Below are positions 3,049-50,185 of a stretch of DNA of 64,000 nucleotides, in pieces. Numbering within the stretch: position 1 is the stretch's first letter; each line of letters opens with the position of its first letter. The DNA comes from Dentipellis sp. KUC8613 (Eukaryota > Basidiomycota > Agaricomycetes > Russulales > Hericiaceae). Under the pieces are notes generated by a model that did not search any database, was not told where the DNA came from, and was given only the letters and a program-made list of their open reading frames with translations. The stretch lies in contig NSJX01000075.1 in the NCBI GenBank assembly GCA_002286715.1, positions 1 through 64,000 on the forward strand, in the 5' to 3' direction. The position numbers and the translations under genes are program-made.

Positions 3049-3924
3049 CTACAGTCTATCAGACATTGCCACATTGTGAGCTGCCTCAATTAAGGCATAG
3101 TCCTCTATGCCTGGTGCCCAATTATTCTTTGCTGGATGAAGTAGGTACCTTACCTTGCCCTCTACTCCAGCCCAGTCAAAATCGAGAATCTTTGTTTGCC
3201 CTCCCATGTCTATCCCAGGATCCACACTGCTCGCAATCAGAATATTTGGTGGTCGGATGTCCTCGTGAACTTGCTTGTCATCGTGCAGACACTTCAACGC
3301 ATTGCAAACAGCTGTGCGCACAGACTGTGGGATTTTCCTGCCTGATGAGGAGAATCTTTCCAGTGCAGTCTTGCCTTCAATGTATTCCATCACGACCATC
3401 TTGTGCGTCGAGGGGCCACCACCCGGAACCTTGTCTTCGAGCCAAACAGCCCCGAAGTACAATAACTTGGGTGCGAAGTTGTGAGTGGCGAGCAGGCGAT
3501 GGGCATCCACGCCGTAGCGTTCAACAAATTTGACAACAAACAGGCATGTGGGGTCACCAACGTCTTCAACCAGGAAGGTCACGCAGGAGGGCTCGGCACC
3601 TTTGAGAGGGCGGACGTATCAGAAGTGGACAGTCTCATTCTCCAGCTTGAAGCATGTTGCCAAAGGAAAGAATCTCTGAGTCTCACTATCCTTTGGGGAG
3701 ACCTTGAGATTGGTATAGTATGTCTTCAGACTGTCGATAGCAAGTCGGAGTGAGTATAGAGTGCGGGCAATGGTGAGCATATGATAATCGCCAATAGTGT
3801 GGCTATGTCCGAGCCATATATAGTTTGTAAGGCGCTGGACAATCGGAGAAGCGGTAAAAATGGCACTGCAGATAACCAACCATGGTCCGGCGACAGCTAC
3901 AATGAAAGATGGGCAGAAGCACAT
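3049..3924 (-). pseudogene. FunK1-like protein kinase, 5' truncated, one in-frame TGA
   Basis: A single reading frame runs across 3924-3049, interrupted only by a TGA at 3619-3621. The N-terminal part (VAGPWLVICSAIF, LTNYIWLGHSHTIGDYHML) and the C-terminal part (VVKFVERYG, MVVMEYIEG, QVHEDIRPPNIL, ILDFDWAG) together resemble the agaricomycete FunK1-like kinase family. The catalytic loop HxDxRxxN is present, and DFD stands where most kinases have DFG. Residues before VAGPW are missing: an intron acceptor (CATTGTAG) precedes them, but no upstream exon is recognisable. The TGA lies where CGA (Arg) would fit, so one CpG to TpG change may have broken the gene. It could also be read as two fragments. 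The substrate is unknown. Confidence 0.7.
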
Positions 3925-4602: not shown

Positions 4603-5876
4603 TCAGCCTCGCACCACAAGTACGGACCAGGAACACTCAGGTAGTGTATCCGCCGCGTCCTCGTCCTCGTCGTCACTCGTGACACCGTTGATCAGCAGGC
4701 CAGTCCTCGAGTGACCGACGGACGGCACGGGGCGATCATTCGCCGCACGATGCAGCTGCACGAGCACGCGCTGCACGTACTGGAGGTAGCCCTGCAGCGC
4801 GTACAGGAAGCGGCGCGTCTGGAGGTGCTTCGAGGATGCGCATACGGATAAGTCGTCCTCCTTGATGATGGAGCTATGCTGTACCCGTCTGCCACGACGG
4901 GAATTAAGCCGAAGAGACGCACAGTGAGGGTGCCGCAGTCCGAGGTCAAGAATATGGACATGTTGAGCAGCGACCAGCCGGGGTGAAGATCGCGGGCAGG
5001 GTGAGTGCGCCGCTGCTACGCTCACTGCTCGGGGAGGGCGGAGCGTCGTCCAGGGAGGAGTTGAGTGTGCCCTCGTTGATCTCGCGCTGGAGGCAGTAGA
5101 ACACGTACAGGTGGCGATCCTGGTCCTTGCTCTGGACGCACTCCTTTGTCAGTTTGACGTAGTGCTCGCATGCCTTGCGCAGCGCCTTGATCTTGGCCGA
5201 CGGCGGGGCCTCAGAGAAGAATGTCTGGCGCACGGGTGAGTGGTCGTAGAAGAGACCGCGCGTGGAGGCATACCTTGACAAACTCGACACTAGGCGGCTG
5301 CACCGTGCAGATGGCCTCCGTCCTGCCACGCAAGAATGCCTTGGTCACCACAGGCTCGTATTTGCACTCTATCCTCCCTATTCGCCAATAAGCACAGTCG
5401 TCTTACACGCAAAATAGAACAAATACGCACCGTAGAGGCCATAGTACGCCACTTGGAAGGCCATCTGCACGAATGCATCGGAACTAAAACTGTGGCTTCT
5501 TCCCATATCCCTTAGGACCCGAGCGCCTGGCAGTCATTTTGGCAGATTGATCAGGTCGCTCAGGCGCGTCTCAGCGAAGCGGATGTCCTGTGCGCAGCTC
5601 CGGCGTGAGCGTCCATTCGAGCTTCTTCGGGACCGTGTCGATGTGCCCGGTGAGGGGCCGCGCGGAGGACGGTACGAGCGTGCGTACGGGGGAAGCGGGG
5701 TATGGAAGGGAATCGGTGCGGGCTGGATGATGGAGCGGGCGAGTAGGATGAGGCCCTGGGTGAAGATATCCGCTGCGAAGCGCAGCACGGTTTGCCCGTC
5801 GACGCTGATATGTTCACCTTGATGCCCGCGGTGCCATCGACGCAGACGATTATTCGCAACTGTGAGCGGGGTCAGC
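4603..5876 (-). pseudogene. carnitine O-acetyltransferase pseudogene (5' truncated, several frameshifts)
   Basis: Read in order on the minus strand, blocks in different frames reconstruct the C-terminal part of a choline/carnitine acyltransferase: IIVCVDGTAGI; GEHISVDGQTVLRF, with the GEH that carries the catalytic histidine in this family; VPKKLEWTLTPELR; IRFAETRLSDLI; AFQVAYYGLYG; YEPVVTKAFLRGRTEA; HYVKLTKECVQSKDQDRHLY; LNMSIFLTSDCGTLT; FGLIPVVADGYS; IIKEDDLSVCASSKHLQTRR. Moving between at least five adjacent blocks needs a one-base shift that no intron explains. The N-terminal half of the enzyme is absent upstream of 5876. In life such enzymes move acetyl groups between CoA and carnitine in mitochondria, peroxisomes or cytosol. 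This copy cannot make a full protein. One or two shifts could be sequencing errors, but not all plus the truncation. Confidence 0.85.
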
Positions 5877-6270
5877 ACGACGAAGGGCCTGGGAACAAGT
5901 TGGTGCAGGTCCCAATTTGCACATCATACTTGACCCCGTATGTGACAGAGATGCAGGTTCTTCTTGCATGATGCATCACTAAATAGGTGTCTAATTGTGC
6001 ATGGTTTATGCAACTGGGAACGGAAAATATACCCCACGAAAGAGCCAATTGGCGGCTCACTAAGAGCGAAGTGGTTGTTGAAGGGGTTGGCTCACGGAGA
6101 GCAGAGGAAGGCTCACGGGGAGCTGTGCATAGGGGGCTCACAGAGAACAGGAGGCGTCGCGCGACTATTAGCCTTGATAAAAAAAACAGGTCTTTAATCA
6201 CAAATAAATGAGAGAACATGAAGAATCAGACTCTGCATTTGCCAGCCCACTCCTCATTACTTCATATCTG
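5877..6270. other. intergenic stretch
   Basis: No conserved coding block is seen. The carnitine acetyltransferase similarity stops at its upstream edge. A short CTCACGGAG-type motif recurs around 6090-6140. The 3' end of the ispE-like gene enters from the right. Confidence 0.5.
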
Positions 6271-7164
6271 TCAACCTTCAAGAGGCTCCCAATTTCGAGC
6301 ACTAGCACTGACAAATGCACCCCACCTGCTGGGAACTTGCCGCAGCACATCCCTCGCCTCGCTTTCTTGGTTGAATTGTAAGAACACACAGCTCCCCGCT
6401 CCGCTCATCCGTGCAGGCCCGAAACGCCCCAGCCATGCTAATGCCAGTGCAACACTCGGCGCACGGGCGGCGACCACAGGTTCGAGGTCATTCCGTGTCT
6501 CCATGCCAGCGAGATACTGCTCCACTGTGATAGGGACCGTGTCGCGCTTGAGGCGTGGGTCCTGGAAGACGGCACCCGTAGTGACGACAGTGGAGGGAAA
6601 GATGATGAGGAACCAATGGGAAGGAAGGTCGAGAGGTGAGAGGTCGGAGCCAATGCCTACACCCCACGATGGACGCGCCTCCAACTGCACGGGTACGTCG
6701 GCACCGAGTGCCTTTGCGAGCGGATGAAGATCTCGGGTCGGGGCACTGACACCCCACAGACGATTGAGGGCGATTAGCGTCGCTGCCGCGTCTGCGCTGC
6801 CGCCACCGAGGCCGCCTCCAATGGGGATGCGTTTGTGGAGGACGATATCAGCGCCCTGTGATAAGGTGTAGTGAGAACGGAGAAGCCGTGCGGCTTTGAG
6901 AACGAGGTTGTCAGGGCTATCCAGTGCTGCCATCGCTGCATCATCGATCAACGAAGCATCGCAAGATCGGAGGCAGGACAGCGTAATGCGGTCGTCGTGT
7001 CGAAGAGAGAAGACGAGGTCGTCATGGTATGTGAGGATCTCGAAGGCGGTCTGAAGAAAGTGGTATCCGTCGGCGCGGCGGCCTGTAACATGGAGGAAAA
7101 GATTCAACTTGGCGGGAGCACGGGCTGTTAGTGAATGACTGCTCGCTGGCGTTGTGTGCTGCAT
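6271..7164 (-). CDS. ispE: IspE-like 4-diphosphocytidyl-2-C-methyl-D-erythritol kinase (bacterial type)
   Basis: This is an uninterrupted 297-codon frame from the ATG at 7164, close to the usual ~285-residue bacterial IspE. GHMP-kinase features are all visible: the N-terminal APAKLNLFLHVTGRRADGYH with the conserved lysine and the DGYH motif, the ATP loop PIGGGLGGGSADAA, the GADVPV segment with the catalytic aspartate, and the C-terminal glycine loop ARMSGAGSCVF. In bacteria and plastids IspE phosphorylates CDP-methylerythritol in the MEP route to isoprenoids. Fungi make isoprenoids from mevalonate, so the product's role here is unclear. The gene has no introns, unlike its neighbours. It is flanked by fungal genes and shares a 548-bp upstream region with the divergent importin gene. 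The wording of the motifs resembles proteobacterial IspE, from memory only. The frame extends upstream without an ATG, so 7164 was chosen. Confidence 0.9.
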   Translation of the reverse strand: MQHTTPASSHSLTARAPAKLNLFLHVTGRRADGYHFLQTAFEILTYHDDLVFSLRHDDRITLSCLRSCDASLIDDAAMAALDSPDNLVLKAARLLRSHYTLSQGADIVLHKRIPIGGGLGGGSADAAATLIALNRLWGVSAPTRDLHPLAKALGADVPVQLEARPSWGVGIGSDLSPLDLPSHWFLIIFPSTVVTTGAVFQDPRLKRDTVPITVEQYLAGMETRNDLEPVVAARAPSVALALAWLGRFGPARMSGAGSCVFLQFNQESEARDVLRQVPSRWGAFVSASARNWEPLEG

Positions 7165-7712
7165 GGTGTGGAGTCCCGGAGACAACTGACTACCGTCAGA
7201 CGCGCGTTGTCCGCGGATAGACAGGAAAAGAACAACGCATAAGGATAGCCTGGGCGCTGCACGTATGATCTTGTGACTCGGACGTTGCAAATGGAGACGA
7301 CGTCTGTCAAAGAAGGCGCTTTGAAAGCTGGAATTCGGCGAGGAGAGCCAGCTTTAGCAGCCAACGAGCGAGTGGAAGCTGGACGCATTCGCAAACAGCA
7401 AAGAACAAAGAGCGTCGGGAAATTGCCGAGGCTGAGCGGGGCGACACAGCCACCGATTGGTAGGCGATCAGCCACTGCGAATAGATTGGTCGAGATTTGG
7501 GCAACACACCATCCTTCCTCCTCCCTTCTCCCCTCCTGCTCTCCCCGTCTACTTATCTCTTTCAACGGAATCCTGTCCTAGTTGATCTTACCCGACCCTC
7601 TCAAATTTGTGCTGCGGACAGGTGTGCATACCACTCGCGACTTTGTCGAGTCTGCGGTGTCGCTGAACGTCCCGCCATCCCGACGTAGGGCTATCGATAG
7701 TAATTCGCAGCC
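7165..7712. promoter_or_regulatory. shared upstream region between ispE-like and importin genes
   Basis: This 548-bp stretch separates two divergent start codons and must hold both promoters. Just before the importin start there is a pyrimidine-rich run (about 7505-7555, CTTCCTCCTCCCTTCTCCCC), typical of fungal core promoters. No specific operator is identified. Confidence 0.5.
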
Positions 7713-10700
7713 ATGGACCCTGTCGTCCCTGCTGAAGTCACCGCAGAGCTCACCCAAATACTCTCAAACCTTGTACTAGGAGACAATGAGATTCGCACAG
7801 CGTACGTTTACCGCGCATACAATTACCCCGCTATACTTACAACGTACTCTTTTCGCCATGCAGAGCGGAAACTGCGGTAAACGAGCGTCTCGCGCAAACG
7901 CCTGAAGTATATCTTCTCGCGCTCGCGCAATTCGCGACGTCTGCCGCGACCGAGGTGGTGCGCAAATATTGAGTATCTCTATCTGTTCACACTGATAGTC
8001 TTTCGTAGATGCGCTCATTTTCTCTGGTGCTCCTTCGCCGCCTACTCTTCCGCTCCTCATCCAGTCAAAGTGGCAAATCGACACGCTTGACTCTCTACGA
8101 CCACCTGTCTTCACAAGCCCTCACCACTCTCGAACGCCTTTTGCTGCACTCGCTGTCACATGAGCCCGCTCAAGTCGTTCGGCGCAAAGCCGTCGACACC
8201 ATCTGCGATCTCGCAAATAACTCTATGAGCCGCGGTCGGCCATGGCATGCGCTGCAAGCTCAGGCGTTCGGCATGGCGCAGAGCCCCGACGCCAACGCGC
8301 GGGAAAGCGCGTACAGGGTTTTTGCCGGCTGCTCAAATCTCGTTATGGACCTGCAGACAGATGCCGTCCTTACTGTCTTGCAGAAGGGGCTGCAGGATCC
8401 AGAGAGCATCGAGGTGCGTATCATATCCAGCCTTGTCGCTACTACCTACCCATCGTCTTCGAAACAGGTCCGACTCGCGGGCCTCCGCGCAGCAGTCGCA
8501 TATCTCACTTCCTGTGACGCGCATCAGGCTGCGCAGTCGCTCTCGCTGATGTATCCTATGCTCGAAACACTGCCAGCCCTCCCGCATTCGCAACTTCCAG
8601 CATTTCTGAATACGCTCACGCCGCTCGCCACTTCAAATGCGTCGCTATTTGCGCCTCACCTCCCCGCTTTGCTTACATTCCTCCCTGCTCTGATCCTTCC
8701 ATCGGCGGACCCAGGACCCACGCCCACCGTAGCGCGCCCATTCCCTGGTGGTGGCAGCAGTTTCGTCTTCCCACCGCCAGGGAACGGCAACGGGAAGGAG
8801 GTAGACCGCGAGGTGGAACCAGACGAAGAAGCTGAAGAGGCGCGCAAGGCGGCGCTCGAATTCATGATCAGCCTCAGCGAGGCGAAGCCGGCGCTCGTGC
8901 GCCGTGCGGACGGGTGGGTAAATGCAGTCGTCCGTGCGTGTCTAGGCGGAATGGGCATGCTGCGGGACGACGAGCTCGAGGAGTGGCTCGAGGCCGATGT
9001 GCGTGTGCTCCCTGACTGCCGAGCGTGAGGATGACGTTGATCCAGGTCGTGCGCATCGTGTGCTGGCTTGCCTGTGCTTCTAGCCCGCAGAGGACCCGAC
9101 CGATGACACGTACCCGCGCGTGTACGAGCAGGCGCTCGACCGCCTCGCGTGTGCGGTGGGCGGCAAGACCGTCCTCCCCGCTGCGTTCCAGGAGATCCCT
9201 GGGATGCTCGCGTCGCACGACTGGAAGCTGAGACATGCGGGGCTCATGGCCATTGCGGCTGTGGCCGAGGGAACTAGCAAGGTACGCCGATGTGCCCGTC
9301 AATTCATGCGCCGCTGACAATCTTTGACGCAGATCCTGCAAAATGAGTTAGGAAAGGTCGTGCAGTGAGTCTTGTAAAGCCCTCAACCCTAGCAGTCCGT
9401 CTGACTTTCCCAGGCTTATACTCCCGCTTTTCAATGATCCATATCCGCGTGTCCGATATGCGGCATGCCACTGCGTGTATGTGTCATTCACATGAGAGCT
9501 GCCTTATACTAATGATTACGCCAGTGGCCAACTATGCACAGATCTCGATGTGCGTTGGGCGCTTCTGTCACGCTAACAATTCTTACTCACACCCGAGTTC
9601 AGGAGGTCATCCAAGCGGAATACCACCAGCAGCTTTTCTCGGTCCTCATCCCCGCTCTCGAAGCGCCCGAGCCTCGGTGTGTGCCTTCTGCCCGCTAGCG
9701 TACCCTCTCTGACCTTACGCCAGCGTACACTCCCATGCCGCCGCTGCTCTCATCAACTTCTGCGAGGGCGTCGAACGCGACACGCTCGTGCCCTACCTCG
9801 ACCCGATAGTCGAGCGTCTGCTAAAGCTGTTGAATCCAGCAAATAGCGACGGGCGACAGGTCAAGCGGTATGTACAGGAGCAGGCGGTCACAACGCTCGC
9901 CATGGTTGCCGACGCCAGCGAGGCGACGTTCGCCAAGGTGAGTTGCTCCCTTTGCGTAGACCGCGCATATAGTGACCCGAGCGGGGCAGCACTATTCATC
10001 GATCATGCCGCTCCTGCTGAATGTGCTGCGCAACGCAAACGGCACTGAGTACCGGAAGTTGCGAGCAAAGGCGATGGAATGCGCCGGTTTGATTGGTACG
10101 TCCGCGACACAATCGACATTTCTGCTCGACACTGACGCGATTCGTGCAAATAGCCATCGCCGTGGGCCGCGACGTCTTCCGCGGGGACTCCGCGACTCTC
10201 GTGGAGCTGCTCGTGCACCTGCAGAGTAAGGCTCATATTACTTCGATCGAGGCGTCGAGAGCTCATAGGCGATCTTCATCATGCAGACAGCCCCGTCGAC
10301 CCTGGCGACAGCATGCTGCCGCATTACTTGATTGCGACGTGGGCCAAGGTCTGCCAGGCCATGGGTCCCGAGTTCGAGCCGTACCTCCCCGTCGTCATGC
10401 CCCCGCTCCTGCAGGCCGCCAGTGTCAAGGCAGACGTCTCGATATACTGTGAGTGAACACGCAGGCTCGCCACTTTCGCGTCTGATGAGAATTGGACAGA
10501 CGAGGAGGATACACCCGAGGAGAAGGAGGGTTGGGAGACGATTCAGCTCGACGGGCGCGCGGTGACGATTCGCACGTCAGCTATCGACGAGAAGTGCCAG
10601 GCGTTCGAGACGCTTGTGATCTACACGTCGACCCTCGGTGCGGCGTTCTCGCCGTACCTCCCGCAGTGTCTTGAGCTTGTTCTGCCTTCGCTGCGATTCT

Positions 10701-11255
10701 ACTTGCATGAAGGCGTCCGAGAGGCCGCTGCCATGTGAGTATTGCCGTTTCTTTTTGGCTAATCAACACTGATGGTCTTCGCGCAGGATCATCCCGATGC
10801 TCATCGCGTGTGGGAAGCAGAGCAACACGCTCACGAATCAGATGGTGTCCGCGACGTTCTCCCAGGTGATCAACTGCATCTCCAACGAGACCGACGCATC
10901 CTTCCTCGCATCGCTGTACAAGTGCCTCTCAGACAGCATGCTCGTGCTCGGCGGGCGCACCGCGCTCTCAGACGAGCTACAGGCAGGCGCGATCGCCGCG
11001 ACACAGCGGCAGCTGCATGCGTTTGCCGAGAAGCGCAAGGCGCGTGGTGGGCGCGGGCTCGCGGAGATCGCGGACGAGCGCGAGGATCTTGCGCTGCTCG
11101 AGGAGATGGAGGAGTTCGCGCTGGAGGATATGGCGCGGTTCTTGGGTATGTTGGAGCAGAACCACCCGCTGCTGATGGCGGTGTCGAGCGTGCGCGATTT
11201 GGGGCTCGGGTTGGGCGCGTGGGACAGCGAGGATGAGGGCGGCGGGGAGGGTTGA
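7713..11255 (+). CDS. importin beta-3 / Kap121-like karyopherin
   Basis: The protein starts MDPVVPAEVTAELTQILSNL and is a HEAT-repeat karyopherin of the Kap121/Pse1/importin-5 type, which carries cargo such as ribosomal proteins through nuclear pores. Supporting blocks are LVLLRRLLFRS, AQVVRRKAVDTICDLAN, MLASHDWKLRHAGLMAIAAV, LFNDPYPRVRYAACH, LLNVLRNANGTEYRKLRAKA and LPSLRFYLHEGVREAAAMII. About 15 exons are joined by short GT-AG introns; the first three are 7713-7801, 7864-7957 and 8009-8413. The estimated length is about 925 residues. The family is usually near 1,090, and this protein ends in a short acidic tail (WDSEDEGGGEG) where longer relatives continue with more HEAT repeats. It is divergent from ispE and convergent with GMC oxidoreductase 1. 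Confidence 0.88.
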
Positions 11256-18635: not shown

Positions 18636-19734
18636 TCAGGCCGCCAAGGTGAGCCAGCGCGTGTTGGCCGGCAGGAGATGCACCGTCAAGAGCCATATCT
18701 GCACGGGGCCACAATGGTCAGCGAGCCACGAGCGAGATAGCATGGGGGGACAGGTACGCACGTTGTACACGAGATAGCTCTGCCGGTCCGCCGCGACGGA
18801 GCGCAGGAAATAATATCGCAGCCCAACGTACACGCCGAATGCGCAGAAGAGTGCGCCGGCGATCGCGTTCATATGCCATAATCGAGTCAGCAGAAGTGAC
18901 CAGGCGGCGGTAGCGCAGAGGATGACAAGCCGTGCACCCTCAGGTGCGTAGATTGGGAACGTGACGCGCCCCTGCGCGCGGTCGCCCGCGACATCTGGAC
19001 AATCTTGCGCATGGATCGTCGTGAGGATGATCGAGACGCTGCAGAGGATGGCCAGTACCGCCGTGGTGTCTAATCGTGGAGTGTTGCCTGTATTATCATT
19101 GACGTCAGCATCAGCATCGAAATTGCGGTATCGCCATTCCCGCCGACGCACGCACACGCACGCATGTGCATGCTGCGAGTACGCACCCATGATCTTTGTG
19201 GCCCCGATCTCAAACATGGCATATCCCGATACGGCACATGCGTTCTTGCCTATCCAATGGCCCGCCAGGCCAATCTCATCATATATGAGAGTTGTCGCTG
19301 TGAGGCCCGCACTGACGAGTGCGACGTCCACTCCGTACAGCGTAGAGGCGGCCATGCACAGCGGGACAAGCGCCCAGCGGAGCGCATGACCGGCGGCGGG
19401 CGATACGCGCCCCGAAGGCATGGGCCTCCATGGGCGATTTACGGCATCCTCGCGCGCACTCTTGTACTGGTTAGACACGTTGCATTGCAGAAGGTGCAGC
19501 CATATCCAAACCATGCCCTGCGCGAGGCGCGTAGTAGAGGCGACAGGTGCGGAGACGCAGGCGAAGACTGTCTGTCGGCGTAAGTTCAGAGTATCAGCAG
19601 ACACGGTCGCCGAGACAGAGCGGCGCGGGGCTTACGACGGGGAAGAAAATCGTTTTGAAGTCGGTGTAGGTGAAGAGGACGAGCGTCCATGCTACATCCT
19701 TTGCGAGCTGCAGAGGGCGGCGGAGGGCAGCCAT
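18636..19734 (-). CDS. UbiA-type prenyltransferase / terpene cyclase
   Basis: Three exons (19734-19636, 19571-19187, 19087-18636) give a 311-residue membrane protein beginning MAALRRPLQLAKDVAWTLVL. Two aspartate-rich motifs of the UbiA superfamily are clear: NVSNQYKSAREDAVNRPWRP followed by SGR, and AQDCPDVAGDRAQGRVTFP. They bind the diphosphate of a prenyl donor through Mg2+. Several hydrophobic helices lie between them. The second intron sits after ATKIMG. In fungi, UbiA proteins either transfer a prenyl chain to an aromatic or other acceptor, or act as terpene cyclases (precedents: Fma-TC of fumagillin and EriG of erinacine biosynthesis). The position between two P450s and two flavin oxidases argues for secondary metabolism rather than ubiquinone or heme synthesis. 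The product cannot be predicted from sequence alone. Confidence 0.88.
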
Positions 19735-23952: not shown

Positions 23953-26845
23953 ATGCACTCGCCCTTCGGTTTCGCAATAGCTTTGGGCACACTCTTCGCT
24001 GCAAGCCTGGCCGGTGCTAGCTCCCAATGTCAATCGCTTCCCAGCGCTCCGTCGGCTGCCGACGCACGCGCCTTCTCACGGATCTCGTTTGACTACATTG
24101 TTGTCGGTACGCACTCACATCAGAGATCCTCACCGACACGGGCTTCTTTTGTTTGACGTTTTCTTTCAGGTGGTGGTACTGCAGGCCTTACGGTCGCTTC
24201 GCGGTACGCATGGTGTGCTTCTCATCCTTCGCGCTGATCATGACGTCCTGTCTCTAGACTCGCGGAAACCCCGAACGTCCAAGTTGGTGTTCTAGAGGCC
24301 GGCTTCTTTCACCAGGGAGACCCTCTCGTAGATGTTCCAGGTGCGTATTCTTTCTGCTCTGTTCGGACTCGCGTTCACATCGTGCACGTTGAGCAGGGGA
24401 CATTGGGCTTGCTCAGGGTAATGCCTCCTACGATTGGGCTTTCTCGACTGTGCCACAGTCAGGGGCAGCCGGGCGCCAGATCTCTCAGCCTAGGTACGTA
24501 TTGTGACCAACTACCTTGTCTGACACCACAGTTTCAGACTGACACATGTCATGGCAGGGGCAAGATGCTCGGTGGCTCGAGCGGGCTGAACCTGTTGGCA
24601 TGGAACCGGCCCTCGAAGCCGGAGCTCGATGCTTGGGACCACTTTGCTCCTGGTACGGGCTGGAACTGGACGGGCCTCCTCAGGTATATGATGAAGGCCG
24701 AGTCGATCATGGCGGGAGAATGGAACCCCTTCCCAGGGCTTACGCCCCAAGAGGAGAATGATACGTACGACTCGGCGGTCGATGGTACGACTGGGCCTAT
24801 TAGGGTATGTGGCGTCGTGTGGCAGGTGAAGGGGTCGCTGAAGTGCGTATGGCTAGGCCTCGCTCAACGTGCTATACCCTGACAATGTGCCTCCGTTTGT
24901 CTCTTCGCTGAATAACGTCGGGATCTCGACGAATCCAAACGCGGTACGGAACTTCCTGCGTTTATGGAGGGTCCAAGACCCTTAATTTACCAGTCGACAG
25001 GATGCAGGCAACACCACTGGCGTCTACAACACACGGACCTGTATCGACCGCTCAACGGGCACCCGCTCCTATGCGGCGCAATATTACTGTCGCTCTTCCT
25101 CGCAGTCAAATTTCCACGTCCTGACAAACTCTCAGGTACGGTTCACAGTTTGTCCATATATCGATAAAGTCATTGAGACGTAAGGCAGGTGACGAAGATT
25201 GTATTCAAGCCAGGTGCTCAGAACGTCACAGCTACTGGCGTGCGGTTCGTGGTCAATGGTCAATCATATGTGGTCGATGCTAGTACGGAAGTCATTCTCG
25301 CCGCGGGGACCGTACAAACACCACAAATCCTGGAGCTATCTGGTATGACCTCTATCGCGTGGTTGGGTCACTTACTGATCGGTAACAGGCATCGGTAACC
25401 GCACCATCCTTGATCAGGCAGGCGTGCAGACACTGGTCAATCTGCCCGGCGTAGGAGAAAATCTCCAAGTACGTCGCCTTTTTTACATTTGTGAGCCATA
25501 TCTCAATCTTCAAGAAAGGAACATCTTTTTGCACCGGTGCAATATCAGCTCAACTCTAGTGTGATCAATTTCGGTATACTTTCCTCCTTTCGATTCGTAG
25601 AATATCCAGCTCAATGGGCGCAGATACACTCCGGATCAATGCATCCTTCGCTGCCGCTCAAGCCGCTCAATAGTACGACGCCCCTTTTCTTTACTCGCAT
25701 AAATCGTCTCATCAGACACAGTTCCGCCTCTCACACTGGTTGGCTCGCTGCCTCCGACTCGGCTTTCGCATACCTCCCATTTGGCGTGTTTGTCAATGCA
25801 TCTGACAAATCTGCGCTCATTTCCGCATTCAATGCTTCCACGCAGGTAGCCGGTACAACACCGCTGCAGGCGCTGCAGTACGAGATACAGGCAGGGTGGC
25901 TTCAGGAAGACGATGTGCCGCAGGTAGAGGTACTTGTGTTCAGCAAGGGTCTCATTTCGCCCGCAGATGATCAGGTATATACGACACTGCTAGGAGGATT
26001 CCAGGTGCGTTCCTTTGGTCCCGTCAATATTCTGGTTCGCTAATGTTCGCGTGGACAATAGCACCCCGTGGCTCGCGGGTCTATCGTACGCACACATTCA
26101 TCTCGATTTTCGTAGGATCTCTTGTTGATGTTCACTGAAGCACATAAACTCGAGTAACCCCCTCGCATATCCTGTCATCGACGGCAACTACCTAGACAAC
26201 GACTATGGTGCGTGCTCCATACCTCGCTTCTGCTTGGGCGCTTCTTAACGGTTTGGTTGCCAGACGTCTTGACGATCGTGAATGCTGTCAAGCTGGCGCG
26301 CCGAGTGGGCACAGTAGCGCCGTTTTCGAATATCGTTGTCACTGAGACAAATCCGCCTCCTGGAGAGCTCTCCGACGCCGATCTCATCAAGTGCGTTTGT
26401 CCTTACCAGGCTATTATTAACACGAACTGATGCGACACGCGATGCAGCTGGGTTAGAACAACGGCGAACGTAGGTTCTCTAAGTTTTACTGCGGATACTC
26501 TTAGTTGACGATGGCGCATAGCCCGGGAGCCACCTCATAGGCACTGCAGCTATGGCTCCCAAATCTATAGGTGGTGCGTAACATACTAATTATTGATGTC
26601 CGGCTCTGACAGATGAAGCACAGGCGTCGTAGACGGTCAGCTAAAGGTATACGGGACGACCAACGTCCGTGTCGCCGACGCGAGCATCATGCCGCTTCTC
26701 ATTGCGACGCATATCCAGCAGCCCGTGTTCGCCATTGCCGAGAAGGTGCTGTATTTATGGCTGGCATATGAAGGCGTCTATACTCACCCTGGAATTTACT
26801 TCTCAGCTCGCCGATATATTGAAGCAGGCACATCACGCACACTAG
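23953..26845 (+). CDS. GMC oxidoreductase 2 (secreted, aryl-alcohol oxidase-like)
   Basis: The product starts MHSPFGFAIALGTLFAASLA, a typical signal peptide, then FSRISFDYIVVG and, after an intron, GGTAGLTVASR: the FAD-binding segment. Later blocks are VGVLEAG, RGKMLGGSSGLNLLAWNRPS, EVILAAGTVQTPQILELSG, HLIGTAAMAPKSIGG and NVRVADASIMPLLIATHIQ, with the conserved histidines of the active site. The last exon gives LADILKQAHHAH before the TAG at 26845. About fourteen short introns are inferred. It is a paralogue of GMC 1 but appears to be secreted or to enter the secretory pathway, so it may finish a product outside the cytosol or serve lignin-related alcohol oxidation instead. It is convergent with P450 2. 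The transposon lies in its upstream region and may alter its expression. Confidence 0.83.
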
Positions 26846-27462
26846 TCACTCGAATGTATCGGATATCTACCTGTCGCATATATCCTCACATGTTATCCCG
26901 GAGCTACAACCATCTTCCTGTGCTTTATTATAATGCTATGTATTGTTCGAGCTATCAATACGGGTCACTGTCGTGGGAGGATGCCTTTGAAAGCAGTGAT
27001 GAGGGCCCAGAAGTAATCGAATATGGTGGGTTGGGTTGGGCTGGGTCACAGTATATCTCTATGTTACCTGACTCTTTAGAATGATAGGAACATTGAGTCC
27101 GTAAGTCATGCTCTGGTGCTCGATTCCCAGTACTAGTCATCACTTGGCTATAGATTTGTAATTTTACGCACGACCTTCAAGTCGGTGTATGTGGCTTCCT
27201 TACCAATGATAGTATTGGCTATGACCATAAGGGAGGCTAAATTTACATCTAGAGCAATGTAGACGCCATGAAACAGCCCGAACAGAACGCAAAAGAGACA
27301 ATAGCCAGTTCAAACCCGGTGATGCTACGCAGAAATAGGGCTTCCAACATACTGTACAATATCAATACGCCCTAATCCAATCCGATCCCGGAACGAATGT
27401 CCCAATCGCGTGTAGTCTCCTGCGCCGAACGCGATATCAAAAAGCGAACCCTCATCAACGTC
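26846..27462. other. convergent 3' intergenic region
   Basis: This is 617 bp between the stop codons of GMC 2 (+) and P450 2 (-). No gene or repeat is recognised. Confidence 0.5.
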
Positions 27463-41500: not shown

Positions 41501-44500
41501 ATGGGCTCAATCGAAGGATTCGGGCAGGAAGTCGATCTGACGGCGACCATACGATCGATCTTATCCGCGTATACTTTCGGTACTGGGCTCTTCAAGGAGC
41601 TACTGCAAAACTCGGATGATGCGAAAGCAACGAAACAGGTGCGTCACCGGAGGGCTTAGTTGAAGCTACACGTAACTCGAATCCCATCCAAGGTAATACT
41701 ACTGGACTGGAGAAGCCATCTGGCCCAATCACTATGCAACCCGATCTTGGCCGATAAGCAAGGGCCCGCCTTGCTAGCATATAACAACGGTATACTCTCT
41801 GATAGCGACTGGAAAGGCATTCGGAAGATCTATGAATCGTCGAAATCGGATCAGTCATCGTCAGTGTCTCATCCTTGTCTTGGGAGGAACTTTGCTGACG
41901 CTACAAAATTCAAAGGAAAATAGGAAAATACGGGCAAGGCTTCCGCTCTTGTTATCATGTAAACCTGTCATCTTCTTCCGCGGCTGTGCGCTCAACTTGT
42001 TCAACCAGGTTACAGACACGCCGCAAATACTGTCAGGCGACCATCTCGTCATTCTCGATCCTCAAAATCAGATTCATCCCGATGGTGGGGTAAGGCTCAA
42101 TATTGCAGATGCCGCCGTCAAGTTTCAGGATCAGTTTTCCGTTTTTGACTGCCTCGTCCCGGAAGACCAACGTGGGCGCTTCTTCAACGGGACTATCTTT
42201 CGGCTCCCTCTGCGCACAACCCGCAGCCGCATCAAAGACCAGACCGTCGATGCGAAACAAATAGAGAACCTCTTGCACGAGTTCATTCGGCAACAGGTAT
42301 CCGAGGTATTGCTCTTCCTGACTCACGTTTCGTGCATCGAAATCCGGGAGATACTGGACGACTCGACTGATCAAGATCGTCTTCTTTCCCGCACGACGAT
42401 CAACAGACCCCTTCCCGATTCTCTCCCTGGGGACGGCGGTCTGATCCTCACGCAGCATATATGCACCGTCGAATTCGAGACCCACATCGGAACTTCTACG
42501 TCGGAGAGCAGCTCGTGGCGAATCATCCATGGAGCACTTCCCGAATCCGACGCTGTACAATTCCTCAATGAACGCTGCCCCGAAGACGACACAGCGCGCA
42601 TCCTGCACGAGCAGAAACTCCGTCCCAAAGCCGCCATCGCATTTCCAGTGGCGCACCCCGCACTCTCCGCACCTGGGTTACTATTTACCTACCTCCCGCT
42701 TCCGCTGAAGACCGGTCTTCCGGCGCATATCCATGCGCTGTTCGCGCTGACGCCGGATCGGCAGCACCTAAGGAACGCGGAGGAGATCGGGCTCGCGGAG
42801 GGATTCGACCGGTTCGTCTGCTTGCCCTGGACAAACCGACGCTGTCAGCTTGAGCTAACTCGCTTGCATCAGCATATCGATCAGCTGGAATTGCTTCCTC
42901 TTCAAGGAGTTGATCCCGAAGATCTGGGCGCACGCTCTCCCTGCGCTCGTCGCGGACGACTCAAAGGATCTGTTCGCCGTGCTGCCCTCCCAGCAGCAGG
43001 AGCATCAGACGGGCGACGCGCTGTACTGGAAGAATCTGCCGCACGACGTCGTGCAGGAGGTTGTTGCGCGCGACTTGCCCGTCTGGCCTGTTATGCGCGC
43101 GGACCCTGGAACTGGAGAACGTCGCGCTTTGGCGTCTGTTCTGCTTGCTTCGAGCCGTGATGACAAAGAGACTCTTCGATCGCTCGTGAAGGCTGGGATC
43201 CTTCTTGTTCAACCTCCAGAGTACGTGCATTCGCTCTTGCGCGAGAAGCCGGGCAAGTGTACTTTTCTGAGTCCCGGCGCAGTGGCCTCGCGCTTGCGGG
43301 TGAGCTCTCATTTTCGTCCTCATGATCATGCAGCCTGATCGCGTGTCAGTCTATTTTGGCGCAGCGCGGAGTCCTCATGGACAGTAAACCAGACCTCGAC
43401 CGCATCCTCGTCTATCTATTGCCAACGTCAGACCTCGACCTCGAGCGCATTGCCGACTTGCCTCTCTTCCGCTCCACCTCCGGCCAGTGCGTGTCGCTGC
43501 GAAGACGACAGGATGCTCCCACAGCAATCTACACGCTGCTCTCTGACGACGAGATCGACCTCTTTGGCGCCAGCGCCAGTGTCTCCCCGCCGTCCATCGC
43601 GCTTTCTCAGATATCAGAGGCGGTGCGAACCGTGCTGGCAGTGCAGGGACCGCTGCGCTTGAGCGTCGACGTGCTAGGCAGCGAGACCGCCCAGCAGTAC
43701 CTGTGCACAGCTCTTCGCATGCGCTTTAACCTTACTCTCGAGAAAATGACTGCCGGGCCAGCGCGCCGCCCTGTTGTCGAATGGCTGATCCGCTTCTGGG
43801 ACTGGCTCTCGTCTTGGGATTCTCGCGGCACGCTTCTCGGTCAGCTGTCGTCGTACCCACTGCTGCCTGCTCGAGGAGACCGACTCGTCTCCCCCGTGCT
43901 TATCTTCGACTCGCATGAGGACCTCGATGCCGATGAGGTCGACGCTCTCTATGCCTTCAGGATCTTCGTAGTGCACCCGGACGTGACGGCTCGCGCACGA
44001 CAGTTTCTGTCCAAGCAGGGGCGACTGAAGTCACTCCAGAACCATGCCGACGTCCTATGCCACCTGTCGGAGCCTGAGCATGGGGTCGAGGAGTCCATTG
44101 CGCGCGCGCTCAGGGATCATCTGTTCAGCTCCCTGCGCCCTGGTCAATTGAGTGGATTCGACCGCACGAAGCTGAAGAATCTGCGTATCTACCCCCTTCT
44201 CACACCAGGGCGCGTGACTGCGGACCGGTCCGTCGGCTCTATTCCACCCAACAGCAATATTATATCCGTGACGGACATGAACTTGCTGCCGACCGTCAGC
44301 GGCGTAACTTTCCTCGACGGCTGCGTGGATGTCTTGCGGGTGCTCAATGGAGGTAGCAGCGCCGCCCACGCCGTTATGGGGGAGTGCGACGTCCTAGCTC
44401 TTGCTGTCGACAATCTTGTTTCTCAATCCACCACCCTGCAGCGCGCCTTCCTCAAGCGCATTGTTCAGAAGCGCGGTTCGCTCCCCTCTGGGGTCTTGCA

Positions 44501-47500
44501 CAAACTCGGGCAGACCGCTTTCGTCCGTGTGTGCGGGGAAGGGGGCAGGAAGGCGCCGTGCGCGGTGCTGGATCCGGACTGTGATGCAGCTGCTCTGTTC
44601 CGAGGCGAGGACCGGTTGCCCTCGCGGGTGGACGACGGCGAACGCGATATAGTCCGGTGCTTACAGTCTCTCAGGCTATTCCGCAGCGATCTCGGTGCGG
44701 ACCTGGTGCAAGATCGAATCTCCAGGATATCCGGACTCTGGAGCTCCGAAGCAGACGCCCTTGCTCGATCGCTTCTCGCCTTGCTCGTCAGACTCAACTA
44801 TGACATGAGGAACGTCAAGATCGAGCGTGATGTGCGTTGGTTACCGACTCCAGGCGGCGTTCGCAGCTGCCGTAAATGCCACCATCCCGACGCCCACCCC
44901 CGTGTGCTCTTCGACCGCGTTCTGCCAGTTCTCGATCTCGACACTCTGCCGCCTTCTTTCAAACTTGCATTCGGCTGGGACGCAGACATTCCTGTGGATG
45001 TCTTGAAACAGCAACTGGTGCAGCTGGCAGTTTCTGGCGTTTCTGAGCTGGCAAAGCAGCTGCGCCCTGTGGTGCGCGAGATGGGCCGACGGGTACGCGA
45101 GCTGCAGGATCCCGATATTGCTGAACTGCGCGGATCACTCGCGGACCGTGCCTGGGTGCCGATTTCACCGTACCAAGGCGTCGTCGCGAGAACGGAGTAT
45201 GCTGTTCTTTCTGAGATTGCTCCAAGCGATCTTCCGTCGTGCTTTTACGCCGTTCCTCAAGAGTTCGTCGAGGAGCCCGGTGTTAGGGAGTTCCTCCAGC
45301 GTATGGGATGCCAAGACAGGTACGTTTGTGGCCGTCGCGCATTTGAATGTGACTTATTTGCTCCCTAAGGCCTTCCTTTCCTACTCTTATGCACGAGCTT
45401 CAAAAATCCTCTTCTGTCGATGTCACCATTTCGATCCTTCGTTCCGTCGCCGAGCTGGAAGTGAAAGACGATCTGAGGCGGCAGATCTTGGTTCCAGATG
45501 CGAATGGCACACGACGGCCCATTGACGCAGTCCTCTTCAATGATCTCGGCGATCGCGCTGATATGGTCACGCTGCCGGACAACCGGTTTCTTGCTCATGG
45601 CCAGCTGGACAGTGGCCTGGCGAAACGCCTGCAGCTCAACTTTTTGGGGCTTTCGGGCATCGAAGTGCCCAGCCACGAAGAGATGAAAGAAGACCTGACG
45701 ACGAGAATTTCCGGCGTCCTGAGTCAATATTCAATCGAACAGTCCTTCGGCGAGTTTGTGAGCAATGCGGCTGATGCTGGGGCGAGCAAGTTTGCCGTGT
45801 GCGTGGATACCAAGGAACATGTTCTAGACGAAGATGCTGGTACCCTGCATCCTGCCGAGTTTCATAAATGTCACTCGTTGGTGTTATATAATGATGCGCA
45901 ATTCAGACCTGAAGACTGGAGCGGGATGCTCCGAGTAGGGCGAGGAGGCAAAGAAGGGCGTACCGATACCATCGGGCAATTTGGGCTGGGGTCGTTGTCG
46001 AATTTTCATTTCACCGAGGTGAGCTCTGATGCACTTTGATCGTGCGCTCGGCTCTGAAATTTCGGACCATGCAGATGCCAATGATTGTCTCCGGCGACAG
46101 TGTTCTCATCTTGGACCCCTCAAAGTCTCGACTTCCTGGCACCGGCCGTGCGACAGTTCGCATGTCTTTGTCTCAGATGAGAAGGTACGCCATGATCGAT
46201 TGGATATTGTTGTTACGCTGTACGGCGACTGATCCTTGTACAAGTCGATATCCCGATCAACTCACAGTACTCGACGGTATGTTCGGCTTCGACCAAAAGT
46301 CCAAATTCTACGCTGGCGTAAGTGATGTTAAACTCTGCAGCTCTGCAATATCTCATTTTTTTAATATCTCCTCGGATCTCTCAGACCATATTCTGGTTCC
46401 CGCTGAGGACTGAAATTCAAGCACGCGACAGCGAAATCTCCAAAAAAGCAATTACACAGAGCATGGTAGCAGATCTCATCAACAACCTGCGCAACGATGC
46501 AGCAGGGATGCTCTTCTTCACTAGACAACTGCGGGCCATCGAGGTCCTCCATCGGGGAGCGGACGGGGTGATCTCGGATCCCGACTGGACATATGAAGTC
46601 ACGGATCGAACCACGATGCCGGTCGCGGCAGGCGAAGAGTGTGAGAAACAAAATTTGCGTATATGCCACCAAGCTCGCGATGCAACAGATGGCGTCGAAA
46701 AATGGCAGATTTTCCAAAGCTCTATGCACCATTCTTCGCTGCCCCCGGAATTCCAGCCGCTCATCAAGGATTACCGTCTACGGGAGCCCATAATGACAAG
46801 CCTCGCGATTGCTCCGGCTTCACATCGTTCAGGGCTTGCGCGCAAATTTTTCTCCTCCGTCGCCCTTCCGCTATCTACACAGCTACCATTCCACATCAAT
46901 GGTTCCTTTATCCTTGCCAGCGACAGACGAAGTATCCGCTTCGATGATGGTGGACTGGGAAGTCTTGAGTCGCGATATAATCACTGGCTTCTGCAATCTC
47001 GGTTCCCTGTTGTCTACGCCTTCGCTTTGGAGCAACTGATGAAGACCGCTCACACCGATTCCAAGCCCTGCAGATGGGAACGCTTCTGGCCTGAGCATTG
47101 CACAGATTCGCTCTCGAGAACTATTCTGAGCGGTTTCTATGACTCGACATTCCTTGGTCAATTGGACCGACGCATCTGCTGCAGTGAATCGCGAGTTCAC
47201 CAAAAACCTCGGGACTGCTTGTTGATTGACGCCGAGGACGATATTGCAAGCGCTCTTCGCTATCTCAGCCCCGAAGTATTAATCACAGGGAAAAAACCTT
47301 CACTCGAGCGCCGGTCCTACAGAACAATCAAACAGGTTCACGCTGAATACGTGAGGGATCTTGTTGAGCGGAAGGCCGACGCCATCAGACAAGGGTTCCG
47401 AGATAAACGCTTGAAAGTGAGGGACCTGAGATGGCTTGCCAACTTCCTGATTAGGGACCAGCCTCCAACAATCCTGGACGGACTTCTTCTCATTCCTCTG

Positions 47501-50185
47501 GCTGATGGCAGCCTTGCCGCATTTCAAAACCTGGATTCTGACAGCGTCAATGACGAGCGCATGCTGTACTCGTGGAGTGGTACGCGCGCTGAGCGTACCT
47601 CGGAACCGTCACGCGATCTCATACCCATCGACCGCCTTGTGCATCGAGACTTCTCGAAGCTGGTGGCCGAGTTGCAGGGCAAAGGACTCAACGTGTCAAA
47701 GCTGACTTCATCCTATGTTCTGAAGATGCTACAGCAGTGGCTTGGGGAAACACCACTCTGCCGCCTCCCCTTTCGCCAAGACACAACTCATCGGATCCGC
47801 GGCTTCTGGTTAGACTGGCCGGACTTCAAATCCGCAGGCGTTTCGAACGCGGACATCAGCGACTTCCCGCTGGTGCCCACATTAGAGCCGGCATGTTTTA
47901 TCTCGCTTTCTCACTGCCGCAAGTCTTCGTCGGTCGTCATACTGGATCAACAAGCAGATATGGCCGATTGGATTCTCGAAGCTCTCGGTCACATTGGGTT
48001 CGTGTTTGTGCAAAGGGGAGCCGCTGGTCCCGCACTCGATGGATTGCTGCCTGATGCTTCGCAGCGGAGGCCGACCATGATCCGCGTCCTCCAGCTGCTC
48101 AAGTCACAGCCTGATAATGTACAGCACATCCTGCAGCTCAGCGGCACGGTTCACTCCGAATTTTGCACCTGGGCCCGGAATAACATGCCACATGACGATA
48201 GCCTCTCCGTTATTGGTCGCATGTTGCCTGTCTGGCAGACATTGGGAAGCCCACAAAAATACATCGCAGCCTCGGACGTGCAAATGCTGCCCTCGACGAT
48301 TCTTCATCCGCACGAGATTGTCCCGTTCTTGCGCGATTCCTGGGCGTTCATCGCCTATGATTCCAAGATAGAACACAATCTCAAGTTACCTCCCTTGAAG
48401 CTGACGGTTCTGCATAACAGGTACTTAAGTGTACAAATCGGCCAGCAGTTATCAAGCCAGCAGCTGCCGTCATATCACAAGCTTATGGACGTTCTGTTGA
48501 ACGCGCCTGGCAATCGGACATTCGAATCAGTCCTGCTTCCGAACTCAGCAGGCACCCTGGTACCAGCACACGAGCTATATGCACGCACTGTGCCGATCTT
48601 CGCCGCTGCATTCGAGACACAGCCAGGTCGCTTCATCCACCCCACGTATAGGGACCAGGAACAACGCGCGCGCCGGTTTGGCCTGCACACCGAGCTCGAC
48701 TTTGACTCATTCCTCCTGTGCGCGGGAGTGGTCAACGCGGATGTGCACACAAGCCGCGAGAGGCGGGCAGTGCCGTTGTACGCGCTGTATAGAAGCGAGG
48801 TCCTGGCGATCTACATTGGCGGGGACACCGCGCGGTGGCGGGCGCTTGACCAGATGCGCTTCATCCCGCGGCGCGAGGCGCGATTCCCGCCTGAGCTGTC
48901 GGCCCTTCCCAACTTCGACACTGCAGCGTACAGCATCAGGGACCTCCCGAATCTTATCTCGCCCTCGGAAATTCTGAGGCCGGGCTCGGAATCGGTCGCA
49001 TGGTCGCAGAGGGGGCTGTTTGCGTCCGCGCCCAACGAGAGGCTGCTCCTTGCTGATTTGCAGCTGGGCATCCCCACCATCGGCGAAGTGGTAAGCCTTC
49101 CCAGTCCCTGCTCTACTTCTCGATCTCGGATCGCCGGTAAACTGACGGCTCTGTAGGTCGAGCACCTGCGTGTACTCGCGCGCATCGCCCGCGACCACCC
49201 GGGCAGCGCGCCTCTGCTGGCCGAAATCAAAGCCACCTACGCATGGCTGAGCGAGCGCGCCGGGGTCCCCAGCACCGCGCGTGCGCTCGCCTCGGCGTTC
49301 ACGCCCGCCTCGGCGCTCTTCCTGAACATCGACCGCGCCGCAGACGCATGGGCGTGGCGCAGCGCGCGCGAGCTCTTCTTCGGGATCGAGGACGCGGACG
49401 CGGCGGGCGTGCCGGTGTACGGCGTGCGCGCGCTGCTCGAGCCGTGCGCGCCGCTGCTGCGCGCGGTCGGCGTCAAGGACGGGTCGCCGCTGACGGACTA
49501 CGCGCGCGCGGCGGCGTCGCCCGCGGAGGCGCAGCTCGGCGCGCTGCGGGCGGCGTTCGCGGCGCTGAGGAAGGAGCGCGTGCTGCTGGACGTGGTGCTT
49601 GTGCCGGCTGAGGGCGGGAGCCTGGAGGCGCCGTGCGAGGCGCACAGGGTCGTGTTGGCCGCGGCGAGTGGGTACTTCCGCGACATGTTCCGCGGGGCGT
49701 TCGACGATCTGAGGCGGAGCGAGACGAAGGTCGACGCGTCCGCGCGCTGTATCGAGTGTGCGCTCGGTGAGTGACCATGCTGGCGTAGAGGCTCTAGTAC
49801 TGATCCACCGCGATGCGCTTACGCACAGACTTCATATACACGGGCACGCTCGGCCGGCCGGACGCGGTGGAGGCGGGCTCGCAGGCGTGGTGCAACGTGC
49901 TGGTGGAGCTGCTGGGCCTGTCTGATTTCTGGCGGATGCAGGCGCTGTGCGATGCGGCGCAGGACGCGCTGTTGGAGTTCATCGGGATCACGACGTGGGA
50001 CGAATGTGCGTGTCTCTTTTTCGTTCTATTGCGTCGGGGCGGTGGGCGCTGACTGGGTCGTGGGCTGGGCAGTGCGCCAGCGTGCGGAGGAGGTGAAGGC
50101 GCTGGATGCGGCGGTGCTGCTGGATGCGTGTCGAAGGTTTGAGGAGGAGCGCGCAGACGCGATCGCGAGGCTTAAGGGTGCGTAA
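41501..50185 (+). CDS. giant sacsin-type protein with two Hsp90-like ATPase modules and C-terminal BTB domain
   Basis: From [20 protein letters not shown] the first exon contains [16 protein letters not shown], the N-box of GHKL ATPases. After two introns comes [14 protein letters not shown], the next nucleotide-binding motif, then [20 protein letters not shown]: a sacsin repeat N-terminus. A second module starts at about 45680 with [20 protein letters not shown] and [11 protein letters not shown], then [15 protein letters not shown]. Long helical-looking regions follow each module. The 3' exons encode [29 protein letters not shown] and [20 protein letters not shown], a BTB/POZ domain, and end [16 protein letters not shown]. 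The size is roughly 2,650 residues over about 15 exons. Human sacsin has DnaJ and HEPN domains at this end, so the BTB tail is a different arrangement. Chaperone activity linked to a Cul3-type ubiquitin ligase or to oligomerisation is an inference. Confidence 0.85.

Follow-up and report, generated by a model that had tools for sequence, protein, structure and literature searches.

The window analysed here, a stretch of 64,000 nucleotides from Dentipellis sp. KUC8613 that forms the first 64,000 bases of a contig of 82,941 bp (G000:C145), carries an ispE-like gene about 6 kb from the contig start and, divergent from it, an importin-like gene (Table 1). A complete IspE frame had been claimed for 6271..7164 by the sequence-only reading; we found it at exactly these coordinates, with its 297 codons, and add that it lies on the minus strand. 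The other five frames across the interval contain 5 to 16 stops each, and the gene is the single ispE-like match within the 34-Mb Dentipellis genome. The motifs listed in that reading, namely PAKLNL, DGYH, GGGLGGGSADAA, GADVPV and SGAGSCVF (the last at residues 254-261), are all present, and its description of an upstream region common to ispE and an intron-rich importin gene agrees with the divergent arrangement across 548 bp and with the 14 modelled introns. The importin model yields a product of 919 aa with 100% identity to a 922-aa ARM-repeat protein of Dentipellis sp. KUC8613. Farther into the window, pieces of a GMC oxidoreductase gene lie at 24244-27081 (plus), and long open frames at 41778-49153 (plus) include two that match a sacsin domain, the second slightly below the cut-off.

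Table 1. Features of the ispE-importin locus, by position in the window
Feature	Position	Strand	Remarks
ORF giving the C-terminal tail of P0002	5534..5878	minus	unrelated to IspE, probably spurious
ispE-like gene	6271..7164	minus	297 codons from ATG at 7164, stop included, no intron
Motif 3, MSGAGSCVF, residues 253-261	6382..6408	minus	A256 in window protein
T196 to F200	6565..6579	minus	E. coli residues 181 to 185; Phe185 stacks on cytosine
GADVPV, residues 154-159	6688..6705	minus	D156 = E. coli Asp141, general base
ATP-phosphate loop GGGLGGGSADAA, residues 116-127	6784..6819	minus	A124
Insertion, 12 residues (64-75 as aligned)	6940..6975	minus	common to fungal proteins
DGYH, residues 32-35	7060..7071	minus	Y34, H35 = E. 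coli Tyr25, His26 (cytosine recognition)
PAKLNL, residues 17-22	7099..7116	minus	K19 = E. coli Lys10 (catalytic); N21 = E. coli residue 12
Intergenic stretch upstream of ispE and importin	7165..7712		548 bp, common to both
Importin-like gene (ARM repeat, importin beta-3 type)	7713..11255	plus	modelled, 15 exons, 14 GT-AG introns, 919 aa

The window protein scored 204.1 bits against the NCBIfam model TIGR00154 (ispE; cut-off 138.7, E 3.4e-60), both the Pfam GHMP N and C domains exceeded their cut-offs, and the three GHMP motifs are present; narrower ispE models were below cut-off for this protein (e.g., NF011202, 193.2 against 204). All 10 further fungal-type proteins scanned also exceeded the TIGR00154 cut-off, with 204-226 bits overall, in a scan that left out P0123, which is partial, and P0002. 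In sequence, the solved structures closest to it are E. coli-type IspE chains. An AlphaFold2 model of the window protein (mean pLDDT 91.7) was compared with the PDB by Foldseek; the top match was E. coli IspE 1oj4 (TM 0.86/0.90), and IspE chains held ranks 1-18 among the 50 matches listed, followed by homoserine and mevalonate kinases. Membership in another GHMP family was rejected on the TIGR00154 score and these Foldseek matches. Judged from its sequence and predicted fold, the window protein is a GHMP kinase in which the Lys and Asp of catalysis are kept together with the main contacts to CDP-ME. The genome contains four other GHMP-N matches, which on by-eye motif reading look like a homoserine kinase (contig C106), a galactokinase (C5), a mevalonate diphosphate decarboxylase (C27) and a mevalonate kinase (C80).

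The public model of this gene in strain KUC8613 (P0002, 341 aa, window 5534-7164 minus) is 100% identical to the IspE across 79% only; near residue 232 it departs from IspE and then runs into the ORF at 5534-5878, whereby the C-terminal domain is lost. The C-terminal part replaced in P0002 is retained in the other 11 fungal-type proteins, and we therefore regard the model as wrong, probably through an annotation error. The intact 297-codon frame agrees with its relatives better than P0002 does, and the protein of D. fragilis (P0001, 296 aa, 89% identical to the window protein) has the intact form.

Relatives were collected by two protein searches, in each of which the best 120 of 8000 matches were listed. 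Among those listed, 12 matches are fungal-type, comprising 7 named fungal proteins and 5 unnamed metagenome proteins that group with them. The named proteins come from Dentipellis (two, one being the window gene), Artomyces, Russula compacta, Lactarius psammicola, L. quietus and Gloeopeniophorella; P0001, P0003-P0005, P0121 and P0122 bear the names of other fungal species. Four looked-up genera are assigned to Russulales, to which we take Lactarius to belong as well. With a profile built from nine of the fungal-type genes, the 12 fungal-type proteins scored 408-585 bits, and the next match among those listed scored 354. Identity to the window protein is 54% in Artomyces, 51% in Gloeopeniophorella and 55% in R. 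compacta. A single-protein search of genome contigs gave zero relatives, while an alignment-based search of the same kind gave 556, of which the best 80 were kept; 40 of these were used to build the first tree and to count conserved residues.

The sequence-only reading had proposed a bacterial origin, and the phylogeny supports it. All 12 fungal rows (window included, P0002 excluded) formed one clade in a quick tree of 91 rows (SH-aLRT 99), and all 11 did so in a more careful tree of 68 rows (100/99, in a run whose bootstrap had not settled), from which 23 rows, including the partial fungal row, had been dropped. In both trees, which were midpoint-rooted, the fungal clade is nested among mostly proteobacterial sequences, and its sister group differs between the two. 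The named bacterial loci in the trees are all Pseudomonadota except one, from Verrucomicrobiota. The protein thus groups with bacterial IspE; a placement with long-standing fungal GHMP kinases of other function is what the earlier reading had named as contrary evidence. Within the clade, Dentipellis is followed by Artomyces, Gloeopeniophorella, and Russula with Lactarius, an order that we take to agree with the species order of Russulales. Proteobacterial IspE from metagenomes and Pseudomonadales are among the closest bacterial relatives (P0058 by tree, P0124-P0126 by profile score), with 47-50% identity to the window protein and no full-length insertion. The segment bearing the insertion is 40 residues long in all fungal rows but the partial one (11 of 12), which has 39, as compared to 28 residues in 222 of 240 bacterial rows; at least 35 residues were found in 2 of 240.

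The importin gene seems to accompany ispE in two genera outside Dentipellis as well. IspE and importin were found on contigs of equal size in Dentipellis KUC8613 (95,985), Gloeopeniophorella (422,830) and Russula compacta (249,001), and on contigs of unequal size in Artomyces (323,253 and 480,443). We read equal contig size as the same contig, which applies to three of the four species with both proteins named; adjacency of the two genes is taken from the window alone. The contig of 82,941 bp used here, against 95,985 for the public records, indicates that assemblies of KUC8613 differ. The importin is more conserved than IspE, with 79% identity in Artomyces, 74% in Gloeopeniophorella and 72% in R. 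compacta. The importin search, in which the best 120 of 234 matches were listed, also named Hericium alpestre, Auriscalpium vulgare, Amylostereum chailletii, Lactifluus subvellereus, Peniophora sp., Vararia minispora, Russula decolorans, Lactarius indigo and L. sanguifluus, none of which has an IspE match among those listed. These nine taxa are, we assume, Russulales, so that losses, missing gene models or names hidden within clusters must be assumed, and ispE may be dispensable, since several Russulales have the importin and no IspE among the matches listed.

This distribution also bears on whether the gene is bacterial contamination or the product of an assembly chimera. In favour of this, the gene lies about 6 kb from the contig start, whose first 3 kb have a lower GC content (0.40-0.47) and no frame of at least 150 codons. 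Against it, the window protein falls in one clade with 11 further fungal rows, of which five are unnamed metagenome proteins, and has in common with them an insertion almost absent from the bacterial rows, the six proteins named above for other fungal species come from separate records, IspE and importin are on equal-size contigs in three genera, and the ispE GC3 of 0.60 is within the range of the neighbouring ORFs measured (0.43-0.69, the extremes possibly measured in a wrong frame). An assembly chimera, which the sequence-only reading had raised as one possible refutation, is thus at odds with the presence of the gene in named records of other Russulales. On the basis of these relatives, the common clade, the insertion and the importin linkage we rejected contamination or a chimera, the probability of which we consider negligible. 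A protein-kinase domain fragment is located at 3052-3618 (minus), near the AT-richer contig start.

A single ancient transfer into Russulales, followed by vertical descent with losses, is well supported and in our judgement very probable. A proteobacterial, probably gammaproteobacterium-like, donor would have passed ispE once to an ancestor of several Russulales families, near the importin gene, after which the gene would have been inherited vertically and lost in some lineages. One transfer and descent with losses explain the single fungal clade, the common insertion and the linkage of IspE with importin. Fungal copies acquired independently from other bacteria could sit beneath the best 120 of 8000 matches. 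In the Basidiomycota alpha-amylase transfer of PMC3584928, a bacterial gene was reportedly likewise fixed in Basidiomycetes; rapid and massive intron gains are reported to have followed there, whereas the Dentipellis ispE has zero introns.

To our knowledge, fungi do not use the MEP isoprenoid pathway to which bacterial IspE belongs. The absence of other MEP genes, noted earlier for the window, was checked across the whole genome, and none of the five families DXR (IspC), IspD, IspF, IspG and IspH had a match in the 34-Mb assembly in a six-frame, exon-by-exon search, while the same families were found in 10, 13, 9, 9 and 10, respectively, of 14 control genomes. A very fragmented MEP gene could escape, because the six-frame searches were run exon by exon. 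The search for DXS, also with positive controls, gave three partial matches, all below the cut-off, and HMG-CoA reductase is present in the genome. A hidden complete or partial MEP pathway, with IspE in its textbook role, would agree with principal residues that are those of textbook IspE; the five unmatched families with positive controls, the sub-cut-off DXS matches and the HMG-CoA reductase speak against it, and we rejected this explanation as very improbable.

The residues of the active site were then compared with those of characterised enzymes. According to the structural papers, catalysis by IspE depends on a Lys and an Asp (PMC2655357, PMC11541488), and the cytosine is read by His and Tyr and stacked on by Phe or Tyr (PMC2655357, PMC3340893, PMC11541488). 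The seven principal residues K19, N21, Y34, H35, D156, T196 and F200 are invariant in all fungal rows that cover them, including the catalytic pair (K19 in 11 of 11 and D156 in 12 of 12 rows) and the cytosine contacts (Y34 and H35 both in 11 of 11, F200 in 12 of 12); the equivalence of N21 with E. coli residue 12 comes from alignment numbering. The contact mapping covered the 17 contacts discussed in PMC2655357 except A. aeolicus Lys145 and Leu208. Among the other contacts, position 39 is Thr or Ser in fungi, two fungal rows have Val or Ser at position 155, and positions 197 and 201 are variable in fungi and bacteria alike.

E. coli IspE 1oj4 has the same fold (39% identity) and the same principal catalytic and cytosine-binding residues as the window protein. 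The window protein differs from it in the 12-residue insertion after residue 63, in Ala for the second Ser of GGGSS, and in Gln for the Phe that follows GADVPV, and its fungal host genome was searched without finding the pathway partners. The Ala, at contact-equivalent position 124, occurs in all 12 fungal rows, whereas all 240 bacterial rows have Ser there; at position 160, where other fungi have Leu or Met, the bacterial residue is Phe. Two further substitutions are confined to the two Dentipellis proteins. Val169 replaces a Glu found in 231 of 240 bacterial rows, and Ala256 stands where Ser or Thr is found in the remaining 10 fungal rows and in every one of the 240 bacterial rows. Position 256, as read from the motif, would correspond to A. 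aeolicus Ser238, the amide and hydroxyl of which are positioned for transition-state stabilisation (PMC2655357), and Ala256 and Val169 could lower the activity of the Dentipellis proteins. M. tuberculosis IspE 3pyd, at a far lower overall score (109 bits), also has GGSADAA, with Ala at the equivalent of 124, no Phe at 160 and no Glu at 169; since this chain also does without that Ser, Phe and Glu, Ala256 is the one deviation for which we found no counterpart in a known IspE. The M. tuberculosis enzyme is part of a full MEP pathway.

We judged constraint by neutral simulation (300 runs) and by column-wise conservation against 240 bacterial rows, namely 200 proteins from the two protein searches and 40 loci from genome contigs, which are not a broad IspE sample because they are top matches of the query. 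At the sequence level, fungal constraint mirrors bacterial constraint. Each full-length fungal protein (n = 11, window included) keeps 58-63 (87-94%) of the 67 columns with at least 95% conservation among the bacterial rows, and 50 of the 67 are kept in every covering fungal row. Neutral simulation to 55% identity kept on average 55% and at most 70% of these columns, and 299 of 300 runs gained stops. When the simulation was run to 89% identity, 89 of 300 runs were stop-free with a mean of 88% of columns kept, which means that nothing can be concluded from the open frames in the two Dentipellis by themselves. Column variability (entropy) in bacteria and fungi is correlated (rho 0.61 over 273 columns), and the 28 differences between the two Dentipellis in these 273 columns sit on columns that vary among the bacterial rows (mean entropy 2.53 bits, against 1.32), a bias that 0 of 20,000 permutations reached.

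The retention of an open frame, to which the earlier reading had drawn attention, can thus be attributed to selection, as the conserved columns kept exceed the neutral maximum and the Dentipellis differences fall on bacteria-variable columns. A decaying, functionless relic would be in line with the pathway partners not found in the genome, the patchy occurrence among the Russulales matches listed and the unusual substitutions in Dentipellis. Such a relic would hardly have frames open at 51-55% identity, with 87-94% of the bacterial-conserved columns kept against a neutral maximum of 70%, nor all seven principal active-site residues, and we regard it as improbable.

Since it is kept under selection, IspE probably has a job in these mushrooms, and a new role for the orphan enzyme is a reasonable reading of its sequence. 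The conserved CDP-binding residues would narrow the substrate to CDP-linked compounds, as opposed to any alcohol. We propose that IspE would transfer the gamma-phosphate of ATP onto a hydroxyl group of some CDP-alcohol, a CDP-linked polyol or a similar compound, that the fungus either makes or encounters in its surroundings, with Lys19 and Asp156 activating the hydroxyl and Tyr34, His35 and Phe200 holding the cytosine. A CDP-linked polyol other than CDP-ME seems the most likely substrate, given that the other MEP steps were not found and that the CDP-ME contacts are kept by selection. Non-nucleotide substrates are less likely, as the cytosine contacts would be free to drift, and a purely binding role is less likely given that the Lys and Asp are kept. 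The full explanation, in which a transferred IspE phosphorylates a CDP-linked polyol other than the CDP-ME of the pathway, is plausible, and we advance it tentatively. The more specific proposal that the Russulales IspE is now a kinase for a CDP-linked polyol outside known fungal pathways, making an undescribed CDP-alcohol phosphate without MEP, is more doubtful. No CDP-polyol-making enzyme was identified in the genome, where the IspD family, the maker of CDP-ME, has no match.

Other activities have to be weighed against this CDP-polyol kinase. The enzyme may act on CDP-ME itself, imported or derived from associated bacteria, in salvage or detoxification, for which the conserved CDP-ME pocket would be well suited; neither IspF, the user of the product, nor IspD was matched in the genome, and we know of no import of a nucleotide diphosphate in these fungi, which leaves this activity unlikely, if the least unlikely of the alternatives. 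A non-catalytic binder of CDP or CTP with a regulatory role would account for main binding contacts that are kept while the accessory residue 256 is altered in Dentipellis. Yet the phosphate-transfer residues Lys19 and Asp156 are kept in all covering fungal rows, and such a role is quite unlikely.

A kinase for isopentenyl monophosphate or another non-nucleotide alcohol, feeding terpenoid synthesis, is also unlikely, though less so than a regulatory binder. IspE was once reportedly described as an isopentenyl monophosphate kinase, P0122 is named 'ipk protein' by a source, Russulales are rich in terpenoids, and the window contains an ORF for a UbiA-family prenyltransferase or cyclase (18639-19631 minus, 331 aa in one frame). 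For this activity the cytosine-stacking and hydrogen-bonding residues would be superfluous, yet they are invariant, and in Gloeopeniophorella and Russula the contig in common is with the importin. The link to a nearby terpenoid cluster, which the sequence-only reading had found tempting, has fared no better: beyond this one UbiA ORF, no terpenoid-type domain was found among the 20 of 66 ORFs scanned in the window, and in those two genera the contig of equal size is that of the importin. A terpenoid cluster partner was rejected, as none of the 13 prenyl-diphosphate-synthase matches in the genome is on this contig. The earlier interpretation as a whole therefore keeps its bacterial origin, its lack of other MEP matches and its selected retention, and loses its terpenoid link.

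The IspE family and bacterial genes in fungi are already known, and most of the named proteins here bear IspE-type database names. No title or abstract on IspE in Basidiomycota was found among the matches listed from the open-licence PMC literature; compared with the titles and abstracts found, what is new is an orphan, selected IspE common to several Russulales genera. The enzyme is taken to indicate an MEP pathway, and its absence from humans, who rely on mevalonate, makes it an antimicrobial target. Mushrooms that use mevalonate and yet keep a conserved IspE under selection run counter to the expectation that the enzyme accompanies its pathway, and an ispE match by itself is no proof of an MEP pathway. 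An orphan IspE implies a second biological use and offers a natural system for finding its substrate.

UbiA matches number 36 across the genome, which suggests an expanded UbiA family. Many partial matches are on contigs C137 and C2, some with internal stops that may reflect introns or decay. Another UbiA match, at G000:C161:788215-791164, lies about 2 kb from polyprenyl-synthase matches. Hericiaceae make cyathane (erinacine-type) diterpenes, and this arrangement on C161 presumably resembles a locus for such compounds.
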